A stretch of DNA of 35,094 bases. It comes from Candidatus Woesearchaeota archaeon. Its GTDB lineage: Archaea > Nanobdellota > Nanobdellia > Woesearchaeales > CG1-02-33-12. Every line of letters begins with the position of its first letter. Position 1 is the stretch's first letter. The stretch is taken from positions 1 to 35,094 of the forward strand of contig JAGYOA010000003.1 of NCBI GenBank assembly GCA_018399355.1, read 5' to 3'. The notes beneath the pieces are model-generated. The model had not been told where the DNA came from. It did no database searches and was given only the letters and a program-made list of their open reading frames with translations. Position numbers and translations under genes: made by a program. This document shows, in pieces, positions 12,541 through 26,699 of this stretch.

Positions 12541-15090
12541 TTATGTCAGCTCCACATAAAAGTAATATGGTGTTGAACTTGTCCATGTTGGCGCTCCATT
12601 TTCCGGCACAATCATCTGGAAGTCAAACTGGTTATTGTTATATCCTGCAAGGTCCTGTTCGAGTATTGTTGCATAGACTATATCTCCATTTGAATGGTCT
12701 GTTCCGTCATAGAGTATTATCTCTTCAAAATCAGAGTCTTGTGATTCATTATTCACATTTGTATGGATCGAATAACATTGGTCTGTGTTTATTTTTATGC
12801 TTCCTATATACACCTCTTCATGGTTTTTAACATTGAAGGTTGCGGTTATGTTGTCATCTGGATTTGATGTATGGCTTAATGCAACCTCTTCATTATACAT
12901 ATGGGTTTCATTAGAGCAATTTATGCTCCCCCATGACACTGCTGTAGAGCTTCTTGTCGCATAAACCTCTCCTAAAACAGTGCTTAGTGTCCAGTCATAA
13001 ACAGAGTAATTATATGAATCTGCAAGAGTAAGCTTGCCTGAAACATTTCCAACAAATGCCTTCCATTTAAGGTTTTGCGCAGTCATATTGAGTTCCATTG
13101 TTGTTATTGAGCCGCCATTATTTGTCACATTAAATTCTGAAGGAATCAATTCAATAAAATCAAATGTTTCAGCCCCATTATATGATATAATCCTTATAGA
13201 TGAATCAAAATCACCAATCCATGGGTCTGTTGTTGCAGGAATATCTCTTAAGATGTCAAACTCATAATAATCTTTTACAATGAAATAAGAGCCCATTGTG
13301 CTGTTTACATCATCAGATAATGCGCTTACAAACAAGGAGTAATTTCCTTCTGCATTTGTTTCAGAATAAGATGCTTCATAAATCCCTTCTTCGGTTTCAA
13401 CTATTGTTTGTTCTGAAGTTGAGTAATGTGATGTTTCATTTGATGGGCTTGTAATTATCAACCCAACATCTGCATCAGTAACAAGCCTGCCCAATTTGTC
13501 CAAAACAACCATTATAATTTCTGCTTCCTCGCCTGGATGATAAATTGACTTTCTTGTGTTTACTGTTGCAACACCTATCTCAAACAACTGCTCTGAAAGC
13601 ATTGGCACATTCCATTCAACTTTGTCATAAAGGCCATTATTATCTGAGTCTATAAACTTAACATCATAATCAGGATTCTCTGTTACATCAATTTTTGAGT
13701 TGTTAATGAGATGATAAATCCTCAAATTTTCAATTCCCTCTGGTATATCCGAATAAGATTTTATATTATAATAGTGGAAAGAAACATCAGAGTGAATCTT
13801 TATTCTTTTTATTGCATTTCCATTCACATTGAAAATCTCATCTTTTATTGGCGCAGGGGTTTCATATTCAATATTATACTCTGTTTTGCTTTTATTTACT
13901 TTGTCTTTGATTACAAAATTCTTTTTGCTTTTACTTGTTCCACTAAATTCAAACAATGGCCCATCTTCAGAACGTCCAAGACTTAAAAGCGCACTTAATA
14001 TTCCTGTTCTTTTTTCATTTATCTCTTTATCATCTTTCTTTACAACAATATTTTCTGCTTTCTCAGGAACATCAAAATCAAGATTAACATCTCTTGATTC
14101 ATTTGCAAAATTTTCCAGGTTTATCTTTTTAGTCCACTTAACCGGTTTTCCAATCTCTGCATATCCTTGTTTTAAATTTTCAGTAGCATAAATGCTTTCA
14201 TTGTTTGAAGGCAGAACTGTCATAAAACTATTATTTGAGCTTGGCATCAAAATAATAGTTTCATTCCACTTTTGTATTTTAATTCCATCAAACCTAATAT
14301 CAACAGAATAATTCCCAGGGCTTAAATCAGATGTATCAATTTCAAATAATGCTTCACCATTTTCATCAGTTGTTCTTGTTTCAAAAAGATTATTGTTTAG
14401 ATACAAACTTATGTTCATAAGACTAATAGCACTATCATTAACATATTGAAGTGTTGAATAAACATTTTGAATTTCTCCTTTTGAAATCTCATTTTGCTCA
14501 ATATAATTAGTTATTCTTGTTCCTACACTTATTCCTTTCCTGAAAGCTGCATCAAGAGAGCTTATCTTGCTGTAATAAACCTTTGAGTAAGGATTTTCCT
14601 CCTTTAAACTATAATCAACATGAATAACCTGCGCACTTACTTCATTGTTGTTTGTTGCCCCGTATTTTCCATAATAAATGTAAAAGATATCATCCCACTT
14701 AGATGATGATGGACTCATTTCAATGAAATTGCAGCATTTTTCAGCCCCATAACATAAAGTCAAGGAGCTTTCATTTTCAATAGAATAAACATTCCATCTT
14801 GTGCAAAGATTGCTTTCATTCAATGACTCATCTATTTCTGTATTTTCAACATTAAAATCAACAATGCCATCTAATTTTTCAATTCCATCATTATCAGAAT
14901 CATAAGATGAATTTTTGTTGTACTCAATGTTTATCTTTATTTTACTTTGGTTTATATTATTCCCTATAATGCTGTCTGAAGCAAATATAAAAGGAATTAT
15001 AATTATTGATGAAACAAGGAGGAACATAATTAATGAGTTGTTTATCTTACCTAATCTTTTTCCCATTCCTCTTTTTATTTTAAGACTCAT
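12541..15090 (-). CDS. Large secreted surface protein, multi-domain beta-rich
   Basis: 849-aa ORF; N-terminal hydrophobic SLIMFLLVSSIIIIPFIFA; many NxS/T sequons; start overlaps upstream regulator stop (ATGA). Confidence 0.85.
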   Translation of the reverse strand: MSLKIKRGMGKRLGKINNSLIMFLLVSSIIIIPFIFASDSIIGNNINQSKIKINIEYNKNSSYDSDNDGIEKLDGIVDFNVENTEIDESLNESNLCTRWNVYSIENESSLTLCYGAEKCCNFIEMSPSSSKWDDIFYIYYGKYGATNNNEVSAQVIHVDYSLKEENPYSKVYYSKISSLDAAFRKGISVGTRITNYIEQNEISKGEIQNVYSTLQYVNDSAISLMNISLYLNNNLFETRTTDENGEALFEIDTSDLSPGNYSVDIRFDGIKIQKWNETIILMPSSNNSFMTVLPSNNESIYATENLKQGYAEIGKPVKWTKKINLENFANESRDVNLDFDVPEKAENIVVKKDDKEINEKRTGILSALLSLGRSEDGPLFEFSGTSKSKKNFVIKDKVNKSKTEYNIEYETPAPIKDEIFNVNGNAIKRIKIHSDVSFHYYNIKSYSDIPEGIENLRIYHLINNSKIDVTENPDYDVKFIDSDNNGLYDKVEWNVPMLSEQLFEIGVATVNTRKSIYHPGEEAEIIMVVLDKLGRLVTDADVGLIITSPSNETSHYSTSEQTIVETEEGIYEASYSETNAEGNYSLFVSALSDDVNSTMGSYFIVKDYYEFDILRDIPATTDPWIGDFDSSIRIISYNGAETFDFIELIPSEFNVTNNGGSITTMELNMTAQNLKWKAFVGNVSGKLTLADSYNYSVYDWTLSTVLGEVYATRSSTAVSWGSINCSNETHMYNEEVALSHTSNPDDNITATFNVKNHEEVYIGSIKINTDQCYSIHTNVNNESQDSDFEEIILYDGTDHSNGDIVYATILEQDLAGYNNNQFDFQMIVPENGAPTWTSSTPYYFYVELT

Positions 15091-15608
15091 TTTATTTTCA
15101 TCAGTTTTTCATTTGCTCTTTTGTATGATGTCCATACAGTCCTTTCATTCCTGTTAAGAATATCGGCAATCTCATGGTTTCTCATACTTTCATTCTCTTT
15201 CAGATGTTTTGTAAGCGCTTCCAATAATCCAATATCACGGTTTGCAAACACAGAAACAGGAATATCTTTTGGGTTGTCTTTTAAAATAAAGCTGCCTTTG
15301 AACTTTTTCCTTGCATTATTGTAGCTCGCCCATATGATGCGGTCATCCCTGTTTAAAAGCAAGGCAATCTCATGGTAGCTAAGATTAAGCTTATCCTTAA
15401 GGTAGATAGTTAATGATTCAAGAATTCCAAGAGTTCTTTTTTTGAATATACAGCACGGAACATTTATTTTAGTTCCATTTTCTTTTTCCTTAAGAATATC
15501 AACGAATTTTTCAAGAGAAAGGTTATTTTTTTTAAGAATTGATTTTAAGAAAACCCCGACTGCATCTACTTCTCTCTCTAACTCTTTCTCTAACACTTGC
15601 GCTTGCAT
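15087..15608 (-). CDS. Transcriptional regulator with two tandem sigma-region-4-like HTH repeats
   Basis: Internal duplication: VPCCIFKKRTLGILESLTIYLKDKLNLSYHEIALLLNRDDRIIWASYNNARKK versus IPVSVFANRDIGLLEALTKHLKENESMRNHEIADILNRNERTVWTSYKRANEK. Confidence 0.85.
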   Translation of the reverse strand: MQAQVLEKELEREVDAVGVFLKSILKKNNLSLEKFVDILKEKENGTKINVPCCIFKKRTLGILESLTIYLKDKLNLSYHEIALLLNRDDRIIWASYNNARKKFKGSFILKDNPKDIPVSVFANRDIGLLEALTKHLKENESMRNHEIADILNRNERTVWTSYKRANEKLMKIK

Positions 15609-15765: not shown

Positions 15766-18255
15766 TTAAAACTGCCTTCCCATTCTTTTTTGCAGCTCAA
15801 TACATTTGTTAAATACAAGGGCCTTTTCATTCTTCGGAAGGTTCTTGTAAAGGAATTCTATTCTTGGGTAAAGGCGTTTTGCCTCTTCCATTTCATTGTT
15901 GTTCAGGTGGTTATGCCCCCATTCAACAAGCTCTTCTATTATATCAATCTCTTTTCTTGCTATTAACCTTCCTCCAAGCTCAGCGTATTTAGAATTTATC
16001 TCTTTCATGTTTAAATTTTTCATCTGCTTATCAAAATTATAACTGGCCCTGTTAAAACTCCTGTCTGCGCTATAGCTCCTTCCTATAAAAACCTGGTAGC
16101 CAACCAGGGCCCCAATAACTAAAATGCCTACAATTATGAAAATCATATCTCTCCTTTGTATTCCAAGGCCCATATTTAATATTGAGAAACCAGTCAGCTT
16201 GCTTATATCCTGCTCAAGCTGCACAGGCCCAATCAATGCAACAGACGCGCTGTTCTTTACATCATTTATATTAACCCTTTTGTCAACAATATATTTTATT
16301 TCCTGTCCTGTAAAACCTATTTCTGCAAACCCAAATTTTATTATAGGGTCTTCCTCTACAACATTATAATTCTTTGTCAAGAAGGTTATATCTGATGAGC
16401 TCTGCGCTATGCTCTTTGGGATTATTTCATATAATATTACATCCTTTGCACTTTCTGTGCCCTTGTATGATATTGATTTTATTATGAGACTTTTTTCCTC
16501 AATCTCATTATCAATAAATTCTATTTCAATATTGTACAATGTTACCAAAACCTCAATATTCTCCTGTATTTTCATATTCTGGTTTTTGTATTTTGTTTTG
16601 TCTATTGTTTCAAATTCAGGATTCTCAAATAATTTTTCTATTGCAAGGTCAATGCTTCCCTCTCCTAAACCCTGCACATTATCGCTTTTTTGTATAACAC
16701 TCACATCTCTTGGAGTTGTCTGCCTTATCTTCTTTAGCTCAAGCTCAATTTTATCAATCTCATTATCAAGCTGTGATTCTGTCATATACCTGTCTTTTAA
16801 TCCTTCAAAGTCATTTTTTATTTTTTCAAGTTTTGATTTTGCCTGGCTTATTTTTTCATTTAGGTTTAGATATCCAACAAGCTCTTTTTCTTCTTTATTC
16901 TTAAGCATTGAGGATATTTCATCTATATCTATGAGTAAAGTTTCAACTTTTTTTATTTCATCATTCACCTTATAAACAAGGTTTGGAGGCAGCACTTTCG
17001 GCGCCTCCTCCTTGCTTTCGCTTACACTCTCTTTTTCCTTTGATGAATCCTTTACAGAGGTTGCGTAAACCTCTTCAGAAAGCTGGCCCATGTTTCCTGC
17101 CTTGTCAACAGCATTTACCTTATAATAATAAGTTGCCCTGTCTTCTGTTGAATAGTCTATGAACCTTGTTATATTTCCTGTTTCAGAATAAAAGTCAAGA
17201 TAATCAACTCCTGATGAAGTTGACCTGTAAATTCTAAAGTAATCTATGTCCTCTCCCTCATAATACCAGTTAAGCTCAATTCTTCCGTCATCCCTTGATT
17301 TTGCCTCGATATTCACTGGTTTTGGCGGCTTTTTAGTGTCAACAACAAAGATTTTTCCCTCTTTTATTGTGTTGCCTGTTACTCCATTTTCATTTCTTCC
17401 TGAGAAATAAAATGTCCCGACTTTATTATCATCTGTTTCAGTTATTATCATATATCCTTTCCATATTCCCTCATCTTCTGCTAGGGAAACAAGCCTTTTT
17501 GATCCTGGGGATGTATCAAAACTGTATTCAAGTTTTGGAGTTTCCTGCAGTTCTTCTGATGGGATAAGTGTAACCTCGATTGTCCCTGCTGTCAAAGGAG
17601 ACTCATCACTTAAAACTATTTCAGCATAAGGAGGAAGGTCAATTGTAAATGTTATTTTCTCTGACTCATTCATCTTGTATCCGTTTAAGTCCTTGCATCT
17701 TACAAAATATTCATGCGTTCCATCTGAAAGCTCTGATATTATCTGTTTATGAGTCTTCTCCCCTGTAACCTCAAATGTTTTTGGCAGATTATCATAGTTT
17801 GCGTTGCTTGTTCCATACCTGCATGTAGCATCCTCATTTGTTGTTACTTCTAATGTTACTGAATCTGAGCTAACAACACCAGAAGGATATGTTGATAATA
17901 TTTCAGGAGCAGAACTCTGAATATTTCCTGTTATCTGCTTTGTGTCCACTATTGTTCCATTTGTTGCAATCAAGTCTGCAGAAATAGTATACTCTCCTGG
18001 ATTAATCCCCTTGAAGTTTCTTGTTATTTGTTTTGATAATGTGTTTTCGAGCTGTATTATCTCATCAGAAATGTCAAGATTGGTGTAATCAATGTATAAT
18101 GTCCCGTTAAAAGGAGAACTTGAAGAGAGTGAAACTGTTAATGTTTCAGTTTCGCCCTGCATCACTAAATTTGGGGCTGACAACCCTATTGATTCTGCAT
18201 GGACTACTGGAACTATTAAGATGAGTACCAATAGGGCTGTCAGTTTAGCGTTCAT
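15766..18255 (-). CDS. Surface protein with Ig-like/Fn3 domains, coiled coil, C-terminal TM and cytoplasmic helical domain
   Basis: 829-aa ORF; signal peptide; PPKPVNIEAKSRDDGRIELNWYYEGEDIDYFRIYRSTSSG...YYYKVNAVDKAGNMGQLSEEV (Fn3); MIFIIVGILVIGALVGYQVFIG TM. Confidence 0.87.
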   Translation of the reverse strand: MNAKLTALLVLILIVPVVHAESIGLSAPNLVMQGETETLTVSLSSSSPFNGTLYIDYTNLDISDEIIQLENTLSKQITRNFKGINPGEYTISADLIATNGTIVDTKQITGNIQSSAPEILSTYPSGVVSSDSVTLEVTTNEDATCRYGTSNANYDNLPKTFEVTGEKTHKQIISELSDGTHEYFVRCKDLNGYKMNESEKITFTIDLPPYAEIVLSDESPLTAGTIEVTLIPSEELQETPKLEYSFDTSPGSKRLVSLAEDEGIWKGYMIITETDDNKVGTFYFSGRNENGVTGNTIKEGKIFVVDTKKPPKPVNIEAKSRDDGRIELNWYYEGEDIDYFRIYRSTSSGVDYLDFYSETGNITRFIDYSTEDRATYYYKVNAVDKAGNMGQLSEEVYATSVKDSSKEKESVSESKEEAPKVLPPNLVYKVNDEIKKVETLLIDIDEISSMLKNKEEKELVGYLNLNEKISQAKSKLEKIKNDFEGLKDRYMTESQLDNEIDKIELELKKIRQTTPRDVSVIQKSDNVQGLGEGSIDLAIEKLFENPEFETIDKTKYKNQNMKIQENIEVLVTLYNIEIEFIDNEIEEKSLIIKSISYKGTESAKDVILYEIIPKSIAQSSSDITFLTKNYNVVEEDPIIKFGFAEIGFTGQEIKYIVDKRVNINDVKNSASVALIGPVQLEQDISKLTGFSILNMGLGIQRRDMIFIIVGILVIGALVGYQVFIGRSYSADRSFNRASYNFDKQMKNLNMKEINSKYAELGGRLIARKEIDIIEELVEWGHNHLNNNEMEEAKRLYPRIEFLYKNLPKNEKALVFNKCIELQKRMGRQF

Positions 18256-18401
18256 TTTTTGTTCTCCTTGAGTATGAATTTTTTTAGATCTTCGATTATC
18301 AGGCTCTTAATATAATCAGATTTAGCAAGGCCCATCCTCTTAGAAATATCCTCTAATTTCTCATTTAGCTCGTCTTTAATTGAAAAGTTGATTTGGGCCA
18401 T
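18252..18401 (-). CDS. Ribbon-helix-helix (CopG/Arc-type) DNA-binding protein, 49 aa
   Basis: Manual translation, absent from the ORF track: MAQINFSIKDELNEKLEDISKRMGLAKSDYIKSLIIEDLKKFILKENKK*; RHH pattern (short beta strand, two helices with G(L)xKSxYI); 4-nt ATGA overlap with the 829-aa gene. Confidence 0.86.
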   Translation of the reverse strand: MAQINFSIKDELNEKLEDISKRMGLAKSDYIKSLIIEDLKKFILKENKK

Positions 18402-18419
18402 TTTATGTTTCTGCCAGCA

Positions 18420-18506
18420 GTTACTGAAATAATACTAATAATATACTAATAACTACTAATATAATACTATTAATATACTATTTATACACTATTTCATTAC
18501 TATTTA
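18420..18506. repeat. Tandem TACTA(A/T)T iterons, 7-8 copies at ~11-bp period
   Basis: Plus-strand ACTA/ACTG cores begin at 18423 (degenerate), 18434, 18445, 18455, 18466, 18477, 18488, 18499; spacing 11,11,10,11,11,11,11; adjoining TATA-like tttatatataaa. Confidence 0.9.
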
Positions 18507-18634
18507 TATATAAACCTTTCGATTATTTTTCTTTTGAAATTCTTTCGTAAAAATAAAAGAAAATTCATAAAACCCAAAAAAACCAAGGCTTTAGCCTGCT
18601 TATTTTTTTAAATTTCAGATACAATACAACCTTT

Positions 18635-19261
18635 ATGAACAAAACAAGATTTGCTGTTTTAACTGGATTTTTTGTTTTACTGGTTCCAATTTTAGTCAGC
18701 GCAGATTTACAACTTCAGCCAATAATAGGAAAAGAGCTTGATATAGGCGAAATCTGCAAAAACCTTTTCAGGGTTGAAAATAAAGATTATTCCAGCAATG
18801 AAAAAAGCTGCATAGACGCATTTGTTTACTACAACATCTCAGGAAAAAACTTTTTTTATGAGGATCATTTCAATGTTAAATGCATCAATAAGTTTAAATC
18901 TTCTGGAACAGGAGAATTTACGCCTGAAAAATCAGGCAGATATGTTTTATGTGGGCTTATCATCAATTCAACTGCAAAACACAAAAATAATGCTTCATGC
19001 GCTGAAATTCTTGTGAAAGGCATTCCAAAAACATCCTTCAATGTTTCAATCAATGCAAATGTTGTTAACCAGGAAACTGCAGTTGTTAAAGATAAAGATG
19101 AAACTACTAATTCTAGGCAAACAAATCAAGATTCTTCTTCTCAGCCAATCACAGGAAAAACTGTTTATGAGTCAAGCTCTATGAAATCATTTAACATATC
19201 AAGATATATATTCATAGGAATTCTTGTTTTGTTTGTTGCATTGCTGCTTTTAAAAAAATAA
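18635..19261 (+). CDS. Secreted protein with C-terminal TM anchor and basic tail
   Basis: Signal peptide RFAVLTGFFVLLVPILVSA; C-terminal QPITGKTVYESSSMKSFNISRYIFIGILVLFVALLLLKK. Confidence 0.8.
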   Translation: MNKTRFAVLTGFFVLLVPILVSADLQLQPIIGKELDIGEICKNLFRVENKDYSSNEKSCIDAFVYYNISGKNFFYEDHFNVKCINKFKSSGTGEFTPEKSGRYVLCGLIINSTAKHKNNASCAEILVKGIPKTSFNVSINANVVNQETAVVKDKDETTNSRQTNQDSSSQPITGKTVYESSSMKSFNISRYIFIGILVLFVALLLLKK

Positions 19262-22946: not shown

Positions 22947-25900
22947 ATGGATGAAAATATTGCGGAAAAAAACACTGAAAAAAAACAGGAAAAAATAGTA
23001 AAAAGGCTTGTTTCAGAAGAGATGAAAGAGTCATACCTTTCATACTCTATGAGTGTTATAGTAGGCAGGGCCCTTCCTGATGCTAGAGATGGCCTGAAGC
23101 CAGTTCACAGAAGAGTTCTTTACACTATGTATGAGAATGGATTACTTCATAACAAGCCATTCAGAAAATCTGCAAATGTTGTTGGAAACTGCATGGCCAA
23201 ATACCATCCTCACGGAGATTCAGCTATTTACGATACTTTGGTCAGGATGGCCCAGGATTTTTCATTGAGATATCCTTTAGTTCAGGGTCACGGCAACTTT
23301 GGCTCAATTGATGGGGATTCTGCGGCTGCAATGAGATACTGTATTACAGGAGATTCATTAATATTGACAGATAAGGGGATGTTAGATATAAAAAATATTT
23401 CCAATAAAAAAGAAGCAAAAATTAATATGAAAATTTTATCTTTCAATAACAAAAAAAATACAGCTTCAAAATTTTTTAATTCTGGAAAACATGATATTAT
23501 TTCGTTGCAGACTAATTTAGGATATAAAATCAAGGGCTCATATAACCATCCAGTTATGTGCTGGGAAATAAAAAACAAAATTCCAGAAATACAATGGAAA
23601 CTTCTTGAAGATATTAAAGAAGGAGACATGGTTCTTTTGAATAGAAATTCATCCTTATTTGCAAAAGCAGATTTAAACTTAACCAAATTCAAGCCAAAAT
23701 TCAACAAGAAAACAAAGAGCATACAATTGCCTTCAAGGATGAACAAGGAATTGGCTTTTTTATTAGGGGCTCTAATTTCAGAAGGCTCTTTCCATCAAAA
23801 TAGAATATATTTTAGTAATTCAGATATGGAATTTTATAATTATGTGAAAAAAATAATTTATGACCAATTTAAAGGAGTTTTATTATATGAAAGAAAAATA
23901 ACTGGAAATTGTTTAGAGTTAAATATTTATCATAAAAATATTGTTGATTTTTTAAAAAACATAGGCTTTAAGGATGAAAAGTCAAACAAAAAAGAGATTC
24001 CATTTTCAGTATTGCAATCATCTAAAAAGGTTGTTTCAAGCTTTTTAAGGGGTTTATTTGAAGGGGATGGCTCAGTTATATACAAAACAGACAAAAGGCA
24101 CAATGGAAAAAGCATTGAGTTAACCTATAATTCAAAAAGCGAAGTTTTGATCAACCAATTAAAAATTTTATTGCTAAATTTTGGGATAGTTACAACACAT
24201 CCTTACAAAGACAAAAGAAACGGGTGTTATAAGCTAATAATTTCTGGTTATTATTCCATTAAAAAATTTAAGGATGAAATAAACTTTTTCTCAATAAGAA
24301 AAAAAGAAGCTGTTCTTAAAATTGATGAAATAAACTCAAAAAGGATGAGCAAAACAGATTATATTCCTTTTTTAAGCGCTTATCTAAGGAAAAAGTATAA
24401 ATCAACCTTTATAGCAAAAAATAATTTTGACAGATACTCTAATTTAGAAAAAAATTATAACAAATTAACAGCAATTATTGATGGAAAGGACAAGAAAATT
24501 ATTGATATGCTTATTAAACAAAAATACTTGTTTGATAAGGTAAATTTAACCAAAAAACTGGATAAAAAAGAAGAAGTGTTTTCAGTGAAGGTTAACAGCA
24601 ATTGCCATTCTTTTGTTTCTAATGGATTTATTAACCATAACACAGAAGCACGCCTTCCAAAAATCTCAGAAGAGATAATGGAAGATATTGAAAAAGATAC
24701 AGTTGATTTTAATCCAAATTTTGACGGCTCTGCAAATGAGCCATTAGTTCTTCCCTCAAAGGTTCCAAATCTTCTTTTAAACGGTTCATCAGGAATTGCA
24801 GTTGGAATGGCCACAAATATTCCTTCTCATAATCTTAATGAGGTTGCGGATGCAATAATAAAGGTTATTGACAATCCAGATACAAACATTGATGAGCTCA
24901 ATCAGATAATTAAAGGGCCAGACTTTCCTACAGGTGCTTTAATCTGCGGAAGAAACGGAATAAAAAGCGCTTACAGCACTGGAAGAGGAAAGGTAATAAT
25001 AAAATCAAAAGCAGAAATAACAGAAGAAAAAGGCAAAAAAAGAATCATTGTTTCTGAAATTCCATATATGGTCAATAAGGCTGTGCTCATGGAACAGATA
25101 GCTGATAATGTAAGAAACAAAGTAATAGAAGGAATATCTGATCTTAGGGATGAATCTGATAGAGAAGGAATTAGGATAGTTATTGAGTTAAGAAAGGATG
25201 CAAATTCTGAGGTAGTGCTTAACCAGCTTTACAAGCACACAAGGATGCAGGACTCTTTTGGGATAATAATGCTTGCCCTTGTTAAAAACCAGCCAAGGGT
25301 TCTTAATCTTAAAGAAATCATTCTCTGCCATATAAACCATAGAAGAGATGTAATAAGAAAGAAAATACAGTTTGAACTTAAAAAAGCAGAGGAAAGAGCA
25401 CACATTCTTGAAGGGCTTAGGATAGCTCTTGCCAATATAGACTCTGTTGTTGACATGATAAAAAAAGCAGAATCAACTGAAGATGCAAGACAGGTTTTAA
25501 TGAGTGCATTCAGCCTTACAAAAAAACAGGCAAATGCTGTTCTTGACATGAAACTCCAGAAATTAAGCTCCTTGGAACAGAAAAAGCTAAAGCAAGAGCT
25601 TGAGGAACTTATTAAGAAAATAGAGGAATACAAATCAATACTTGCATCAGAGCAAAAAATCCTTGATATAATAAAAAAAGAGCTTATTGAGCTCAAGCAA
25701 AAATATGGTGATGAGAGAAGAACACAGATTATTGATGGAGAGGAAGAAGATATAGATATAGAGGATTTAATAGAAGATGAAGAGGTTGTTATAACTGTAA
25801 CTCATGCAGGATACATAAAAAGGATCCCTTTAACTGAATACCGCGAACAAAGAAGAGGGGGGAAAGGAGTTATAGCAACAAGAACGAGAGAGGAAGATTT

Positions 25901-26699
25901 TGTTGAAAATATATTCATCTCATCTACACATTCATACCTTTTATTCTTTACAAACAAAGGAAATGTTCATTGGCTAAAAGCTTACAAGGTTCCTGAAGAA
26001 TCAAAACAGGCCAAAGGAAAAGCAATTGTAAACCTTCTTGAACTTAAGGATGAGTATGTAACCACTGTTATTCCAATAAAGGAATTCAATAAAGGTTATT
26101 ATCTGTTTATGGCTACAAAAAAAGGTTTTGTAAAGAAGACAGAACTTGACTTGTTTTCGAGACCAAGGGCAGGAGGAATAAGGGCATTAAGCCTGGATGA
26201 AAATGACGAACTGGTAAATGCAGTCCTTACAGATGGAACAAAGAACATTCTTCTTGCAACAAAAAATGGAATGGCTGTAAAATTTAAGGAAAACAATGTT
26301 AGGCCTGTTGGAAGGACAGCAAGAGGAGTTAGAGGAATAAGGCTAAAAAACAATGACGAGATAATAGGAATGATAATGGCCCATGATGCTTACACCCTTC
26401 TTACTGTTACAGAAAATGGATATGGAAAAAGAACAAAAATAGAAGATTACCGCCTTATAAACAGAGGTGGCTCAGGAGTTATAAACATTCAATGCAGTGA
26501 GAGAAATGGAAAAGTTATTGCAGTTATGTCTGTTGATGGTGAAGACGGAATAATCATAATTAGCAGAAAGGGAATTGTGATAAGGATGCTTTCAAGCGGA
26601 ATATCTGTTATTGGAAGGAATACCCAGGGAGTAAGATTAATGAGATTAAGCGATGATGATAAAGTAGTTTCAGCAGCAAAAGTAATCAATGGCGAATAA
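22947..26699 (+). CDS. gyrA: DNA gyrase subunit A with in-frame intein
   Basis: SYLSYSMSVIVGRALPDARDGLKPVHRRVLYTMYENG, DSAAAMRY|TEARLPKI flanking the intein, GyrA box QRRGGKG, repeated beta-pinwheel segments. Confidence 0.97.
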   Translation: MDENIAEKNTEKKQEKIVKRLVSEEMKESYLSYSMSVIVGRALPDARDGLKPVHRRVLYTMYENGLLHNKPFRKSANVVGNCMAKYHPHGDSAIYDTLVRMAQDFSLRYPLVQGHGNFGSIDGDSAAAMRYCITGDSLILTDKGMLDIKNISNKKEAKINMKILSFNNKKNTASKFFNSGKHDIISLQTNLGYKIKGSYNHPVMCWEIKNKIPEIQWKLLEDIKEGDMVLLNRNSSLFAKADLNLTKFKPKFNKKTKSIQLPSRMNKELAFLLGALISEGSFHQNRIYFSNSDMEFYNYVKKIIYDQFKGVLLYERKITGNCLELNIYHKNIVDFLKNIGFKDEKSNKKEIPFSVLQSSKKVVSSFLRGLFEGDGSVIYKTDKRHNGKSIELTYNSKSEVLINQLKILLLNFGIVTTHPYKDKRNGCYKLIISGYYSIKKFKDEINFFSIRKKEAVLKIDEINSKRMSKTDYIPFLSAYLRKKYKSTFIAKNNFDRYSNLEKNYNKLTAIIDGKDKKIIDMLIKQKYLFDKVNLTKKLDKKEEVFSVKVNSNCHSFVSNGFINHNTEARLPKISEEIMEDIEKDTVDFNPNFDGSANEPLVLPSKVPNLLLNGSSGIAVGMATNIPSHNLNEVADAIIKVIDNPDTNIDELNQIIKGPDFPTGALICGRNGIKSAYSTGRGKVIIKSKAEITEEKGKKRIIVSEIPYMVNKAVLMEQIADNVRNKVIEGISDLRDESDREGIRIVIELRKDANSEVVLNQLYKHTRMQDSFGIIMLALVKNQPRVLNLKEIILCHINHRRDVIRKKIQFELKKAEERAHILEGLRIALANIDSVVDMIKKAESTEDARQVLMSAFSLTKKQANAVLDMKLQKLSSLEQKKLKQELEELIKKIEEYKSILASEQKILDIIKKELIELKQKYGDERRTQIIDGEEEDIDIEDLIEDEEVVITVTHAGYIKRIPLTEYREQRRGGKGVIATRTREEDFVENIFISSTHSYLLFFTNKGNVHWLKAYKVPEESKQAKGKAIVNLLELKDEYVTTVIPIKEFNKGYYLFMATKKGFVKKTELDLFSRPRAGGIRALSLDENDELVNAVLTDGTKNILLATKNGMAVKFKENNVRPVGRTARGVRGIRLKNNDEIIGMIMAHDAYTLLTVTENGYGKRTKIEDYRLINRGGSGVINIQCSERNGKVIAVMSVDGEDGIIIISRKGIVIRMLSSGISVIGRNTQGVRLMRLSDDDKVVSAAKVINGE
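23340..24641 (+). mobile_element. Intein (434 aa) with LAGLIDADG homing endonuclease, at the GyrA active-site Tyr
   Basis: Starts C(ITGDSLILTDKGMLDI) and ends (SFVSNGFI)NHN followed by Thr; GSYNHPVM block B; LLGALISEGSF and LRGLFEGDGSV dodecapeptides. Confidence 0.96.

Follow-up and report, generated by a model that had tools for sequence, protein, structure and literature searches.

Introduction

Ribbon-helix-helix (RHH) proteins that repress their own promoters from tandem repeats are an already known kind of regulator. Dimers of the omega repressor of pSM19035 bind cooperatively along short direct repeats at promoters; the repeats have a 7-bp period, and the protein acts as both a global regulator and a centromere-binding protein of a bacterial plasmid. 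The operator of the phage P22 Arc repressor consists of two half-sites, not of a long array. In archaea, the 55-aa RHH repressor F55 of the fusellovirus SSV1 binds, in a concentration-dependent manner, tandem 11-nt sites (ATAGATAGAGT) that overlap the start site and the BRE, both at the promoter of its own gene and at other promoters (PMC5569661, PMC9608457). Archaeal viral RHH regulators act by promoter occlusion at their own promoters, where the sites are filled towards the BRE/TATA (PMC5569661). ParR of plasmid R1, a type of protein that is typically RHH, binds the 11-bp direct repeats of parC (PMC9426499). The small bacterial autorepressor RptR heads its own operon in a restriction-modification/defence island and binds cooperatively to three 9-bp direct repeats; it is not called RHH in its paper (PMC12255303). 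The 55-aa archaeal RHH protein CdrS is reported to be encoded at the head of an operon whose second gene, ftsZ2, it controls as an activator; it is reported as absent from DPANN, and a repeat array is not among its features considered here (PMC7439475).

Here we describe a locus at which a gene for a 49-aa RHH protein, a periodic array at its promoter and a large surface-protein gene stand together. The window, i.e., the whole stretch of DNA that was analysed, is one complete contig (C23) of 35,094 bp in a 918-kb, 85-contig archaeal draft genome (G000). The locus resembles that of F55 in placing tandem sites at the promoter of a small archaeal RHH gene. F55, however, is viral, serves several target promoters with two tandem repeats per site and has its release linked to DNA damage via RadA, whereas the present pair is chromosomal and has up to eight boxes, in an array that occurs once in the genome, with a surface gene as the second cistron. 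Cooperative binding to direct repeats, which we infer for this locus, would be shared with omega, from which the locus differs in its period and in lacking the bacterial plasmid role. CdrS is likewise the product of a small archaeal RHH gene placed first in its operon, but the 49-aa protein was not identified as CdrS, the next gene being that of the surface protein and not ftsZ2. RptR finds a parallel in two distant relatives of the 49-aa protein that also precede N6 methylase genes. In very small archaea with few transcription factors, surface-protein regulation is largely unknown, and this locus offers a tangible case of a regulator with a single target and an operator that can be recognised in the sequence.

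Organization of the locus

The features of the locus are as follows.

18503..18521, minus strand: archaeal core promoter predicted for the RHH operon, with a BRE-like CGAAAGG followed by the TATA box TTTATATATAAA
18422..18508, minus strand: putative operator array of eight 11-bp units, core TAGTA (TACTA on the plus strand), with one 10-bp step
18498-18502, 18476-18480, 18465-18469, 18454-18458, 18444-18448 and 18433-18437, minus strand: six exact TAGTA cores
18487-18491 (TAGTG) and 18422-18426 (CAGTA), minus strand: variant cores with one base changed each
18453..18473, minus strand: 21-bp segment of two units (11+10), present in G000 and absent from G001, G002 and G008 (DNA alignment A5)
18252..18401, minus strand: 49-aa RHH protein MAQINFSIKDELNEKLEDISKRMGLAKSDYIKSLIIEDLKKFILKENKK, predicted DNA-reading strand Q3-I4-N5-F6-S7
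15766..18255, minus strand: 829-aa predicted secreted/membrane-anchored surface protein with a signal-peptide-like N-terminus and a weak Ig-like match
18635..19261, plus strand: predicted secreted 208-aa protein with a C-terminal hydrophobic anchor, divergent from the RHH gene

On the minus strand, the order is therefore BRE/TATA, eight-unit array, 49-aa ORF and 829-aa ORF, and the boxes read in the direction of the RHH gene are spaced by 11,11,11,11,10,11,11 bp. The preliminary description had reported a periodic TACTA array of seven clear copies and one degenerate copy, running from a TATA-like element towards the start codon of an RHH gene whose stop overlaps the start of the surface gene. 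The array proved to be real and its direction correct, the copies resolving into six exact cores and two one-base variants, which is near enough to the original count; the overlap is seen as ATGA, formed by the RHH stop TGA and the surface-gene ATG. As at the operators of F55- and omega-type RHH autorepressors, regularly spaced short repeats lie at the gene's own promoter. The 829-aa protein also contains a hydrophobic stretch near residues 705-725.

When a 135-bp region was searched for chains of any 5-mer core (4/5 matching, 10-11-bp steps), the best chain comprised 8 boxes, a length reached by 1 of 1000 dinucleotide shuffles. In the window, TAGTA pairs with at most one mismatch numbered 8 against 1.65 expected, and none of 100 shuffles reached 8. 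A three-box pattern allowing up to two mismatches gave four matches in the whole 918-kb genome, all of them in this array and with 0 or 1 mismatch; since the pattern read backwards as a control also gave four matches in the genome, the evidence lies in the common location and the few mismatches of the three-box matches and not in their count alone. The operator array occurs once in the 918-kb genome, in which no close paralogue of the RHH protein was found, indicating that the RHH/array pair is self-contained.

The chromosomal neighbours in the window include genes for PCNA, an RNase J-like protein, ScpB, gyrase A with an intein, thymidylate synthase, SHMT, DHFR and thymidylate kinase (TMK). 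Since ParR proteins are typically RHH and R1 ParR binds only where two or more 11-bp direct repeats are present (PMC9426499), the array could be read as a partition centromere of the ParR-parC type. The R1 locus, however, is a partition system with ParM, and the ORFs scanned in this window contained neither a ParM-type filament gene nor any other ParM/ParA-type gene. With housekeeping chromosomal genes all around, we did not assign the locus to ParMRC, and we regard a centromere as extremely improbable.

An RNA structure in the mRNA leader was also considered. The G000 leader folds somewhat better than its shuffles (z = -2.1), but the leaders examined in six relatives show no such advantage (z -0.72 to +0.44), and no Rfam family scored above its cut-off. 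As the G000 hairpin is not conserved in relatives, an RNA-leader function was rejected as very improbable.

The 49-aa RHH protein

The 49-aa ORF matched the Pfam family RHH_3 (PF12651) with E = 1.9e-5 and 25.0 bits, above the curated cut-off of 21.6, and the copy in G008 scored 25.4 bits against the same profile. Several EIRF and other homologues had no RHH match above the cut-off when tested singly, and their link to the family runs through alignments A1 and A3. The AlphaFold monomer model (mean pLDDT 83.9) has helices at residues 5-23 and 27-48 and a poorly ordered N-terminus with no strand, as is expected where the RHH strand forms only in the dimer. Foldseek returned weak matches (all E above 0.2), of which the top ones were nearly all RHH proteins (CopG, Arc, ParG, PutA and TacA), CopG and Arc chains ranking highest. 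Residues Q3-I4-N5 align with Q-x-N in the strand of Arc, a match that serves as a lead only; the third contact residue is R in Arc and S in the 49-aa protein.

A type II toxin-antitoxin module of the RelB/VapB kind was rejected. The protein has 49 aa, and in the model its second helix extends to residue 48, leaving no antitoxin tail; the next gene encodes the 829-aa secreted protein and not a toxin partner; RelB and other antitoxin models stayed below the cut-off, and there was no PADLOC match.

Periodicity at the promoters of RHH leader genes

A scan of the named genomes with the RHH alignment yielded 18 loci, all in Candidatus Woesearchaeota or Nanoarchaeia; the same genomes scanned with the 829-aa surface protein as the query gave nothing. 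We compared the DNA upstream of 38 RHH-type leader genes with dinucleotide shuffles by a motif-free autocorrelation; the test interval of G003, which has extra sequence between the array and the start codon, was shifted by hand, and the upstream DNA of G081 was limited to 70 bp. The combined z was 18.6 at lag 11 and 10.8 at lag 22, with the other lags from 4 to 26 lying between -5.3 and 2.8; these z values overstate the evidence because the 38 promoters are not independent lineages, although the control set was drawn from the same genomes. By group, the lag-11 z was 10.5 for the 7 AQINF promoters, 13.7 for 16 promoters (MxEIRF plus G089), 6.3 for 5 MSIQIRI promoters and 5.8 for the 10 others. 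Among 75 other promoters from the same loci, used as the control, the lag-11 z was 0.9, and 2.7% reached a z of 2. The individual promoters without an 11-bp signal (z below 1) were those of G089, G105, G365 and G148b, none of which belongs to either main group.

An 11-bp array was present at the promoters of 7/7 AQINF-type RHH homologues and of 15/15 of the MxEIRF type, which are more distant. In nearly all homologues it sits between the TATA box and the start codon, and most have a TATA-like element upstream. Relatives that keep the RHH gene without TACTA repeats, which the preliminary description had named as evidence against its proposal, did not turn up among the close homologues, all seven of which carry a TAGTA array. 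Its proposal that the RHH protein autoregulates its operon through the array gains comparative support from these arrays, from their absence at the control promoters and from the uniqueness of the array in the genome.

Operator letters and the predicted DNA-reading strand

Box consensus sequences were derived from a chain model fitted to each strand-defined group, with the register set by hand. All seven AQINFS proteins go with TAGTA boxes (44 boxes), and all fifteen MxEIRF proteins go with TTTARTMC boxes (64 boxes), in which the last C is invariant among those counted and the steps are nearly all of 11 bp. Between these groups, Q3/N5 of the AQINF strand give way to E3/R5 in MxEIRF, at the positions that align with the DNA-contacting residues Q9 and N11 of Arc. 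The operator letters thus appear to change together with the predicted DNA-facing residues, maybe through one or a few evolutionary events; because the consensus was fitted within strand-defined groups, the correlation may rest on very few of them. The consensus sequences obtained for the side groups Q-R-T, E-K-S, Y-K-K and Q-K-S were weak or wrong and were discarded as unreliable, the Y-K-K fit having picked a GC-rich stretch distant from the start codon. If the pattern holds, it is a natural experiment in beta-ribbon recognition in which the 11-bp geometry stays constant while two predicted contact residues and the box co-change, so that swapping residues could put the recognition code to the test.

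A very high AT content and a period near one helical turn would be expected if the array were mere drift in AT-rich sequence or helically phased curved DNA, and the region has both. However, the signal exceeds that of shuffles preserving the dinucleotides and is missing from the 75 control promoters, boxes with a conserved C (TAGTCC) keep the same period in other clades, and the cores are conserved whereas the spacers are free (between-genome identity in the array of 66-91% at core positions and 44-54% at spacer positions). We consider drift or curvature highly unlikely.

History of the locus and occupants of the leader position

Across G000, G001, G002 and G008, the element CGAAA-n-GTTTATATA is invariant in the DNA alignment; the core promoter and most of the boxes are conserved, and the spacers drift. 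The single 10-bp step of the G000 array comes from the extra 21 bp (11+10) that it has relative to these three nearest relatives, an expansion that allows one to ask how the response depends on the number of sites.

Orthologues of the 829-aa gene lie behind the same RHH gene in G001, G002, G003, G081 and G292. In G008, the same RHH gene and array precede a different gene, for a 2039-aa predicted secreted protein. Conversely, distant orthologues of the 829-aa gene (G022, G113, G071, G077, G095, G111, G009, G028, G066 and G030) are preceded by another leader family of 51-62 aa, KRVNIGLKDxxHTKAKVIAVLKGxTLNEYLEKAIEEA (loci L022, L023, L025, L033, L035, L036, L037, L040, L041 and L045), often with an ATGA overlap. 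This family had no Pfam match, compared weakly with the RHH set by profile and has ParG as its nearest solved chain (E = 0.033); it is possibly RHH. The nine promoters measured for it showed no lag-11 signal (z from -2.0 to 0.7). The leader position is therefore conserved, and its occupant and operator differ by clade.

These exchanges bear on whether a different protein reads the array, the adjoining RHH gene being incidental. Binding of the RHH protein to the array is so far predicted from sequence, which leaves room for such a reader. Against it, array and RHH gene accompany each other in several families, also in G008 with its different downstream gene; distant surface-gene orthologues without this RHH gene are also without the periodicity; and the operator letters track the RHH strand type. 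A separate reader thus seems quite improbable.

At the class level, N6 DNA methylase genes follow two of the MxEIRF RHH genes that have TTTAGTCC arrays (G546 and G476; L112:2407-5116 and L113:2322-4647), and further RHH genes precede ABC-transporter-like or other membrane genes, as judged from the N-terminal sequence. The switch is therefore not exclusive to surface proteins: its earlier designation as a switch for a surface protein does not cover the whole family, in view of the two distant members ahead of methylase genes. The MxEIRF RHH genes ahead of N6 DNA methylase genes look like restriction-modification controllers of an RHH kind.

Four genomes of family f9 (G216, G214, G239 and G099) contain tandem RHH gene pairs (L079, L083, L084 and L088); from these duplicated genes, heterodimers could form. 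A separate small leader family (MSIQIRITVSKEIN...; L124, L125, L126, L127 and L128) also has 11-bp periodic promoters (z = 6.3 for the five) and mostly precedes a protein of ~700 aa with a pilin-like N-terminus (KKxQATxFIIIGI). A viral origin of the module was not adopted, the scan of viral contigs having found no relative.

Proposed mechanism

We think it likely that the 49-aa RHH protein is a cooperative, dedicated autorepressor with its operator downstream of the TATA box. The protein would dimerise via its N-terminal strand, and the resulting two-stranded ribbon would read the TAGTA core in the major groove. RHH dimers would stack cooperatively every 11 bp, about one helical turn, along one face of the DNA. 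The array begins at the downstream edge of the TATA box and spans the predicted transcription start, so a filled array would keep the transcription complex from assembling or from escaping, and the RHH-surface operon would be switched off. Since the RHH gene heads the operon, with a stop that overlaps the next start, surface-protein output would be tied to the repressor level, and the many cooperative sites should give a steep, homeostatic switch. A 49-aa protein has no room for a sensor domain, which leaves dilution, proteolysis or a partner protein as options for relief. We infer binding, its cooperativity, the repressive sign, co-transcription and translational coupling.

Sites of archaeal activators usually lie upstream of the BRE/TATA, unlike this array, whose boxes run downstream from the TATA box over the predicted start, where occupancy would hinder initiation. 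An RHH protein that activates from the array, or that activates at low and represses at high occupancy, is therefore unlikely, although CdrS is reported to be a small archaeal RHH leader that is co-transcribed with its target and activates ftsZ2 (PMC7439475).

Beyond autorepression at this locus, we suggest more tentatively, and with some doubt, that swappable single-target leader switches might be broad in Woesearchaeota and related archaea. Each would consist of a 45-60-aa RHH gene with its own 11-bp ladder ahead of genes for surface proteins, membrane transport or restriction-modification. A private operator 'address' would be set by strand positions 3, 5 and 7, and an unrelated leader with a different operator could take the slot. 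If this were true, private addresses would let several switches share one cell without cross-talk. In the open-access papers searched, we found no description of this arrangement in Woesearchaeota. As far as checked, the novel features are that a chromosomal switch with a single target stands ahead of large surface genes, that it is broad in these archaea, that operator and strand change in step, that the arrays of close relatives differ by two units and that the leader occupant changes.

Neighbouring genes

Homologues of the divergent 208-aa gene adjoin the RHH gene in G001, G002 and G008 (four genomes counting G000); none was found at the G003 or G292 loci. Co-regulation of this gene by the array, raised in the preliminary description, is no more than possible: the array lies ~130 bp from the start of the gene, beyond the RHH TATA box.

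Elsewhere in the window, the gyrase/topoisomerase IV subunit A gene (22947-26699, plus strand) is split by an intein that contains a LAGLIDADG domain. Downstream of the surface gene (12541-15608, minus strand) follow genes for a 173-aa protein, with a Sigma70 region-4-like HTH match barely above the Pfam cut-off, and then an 849-aa protein with weak Ig/MG-like matches, and both are kept in G001.
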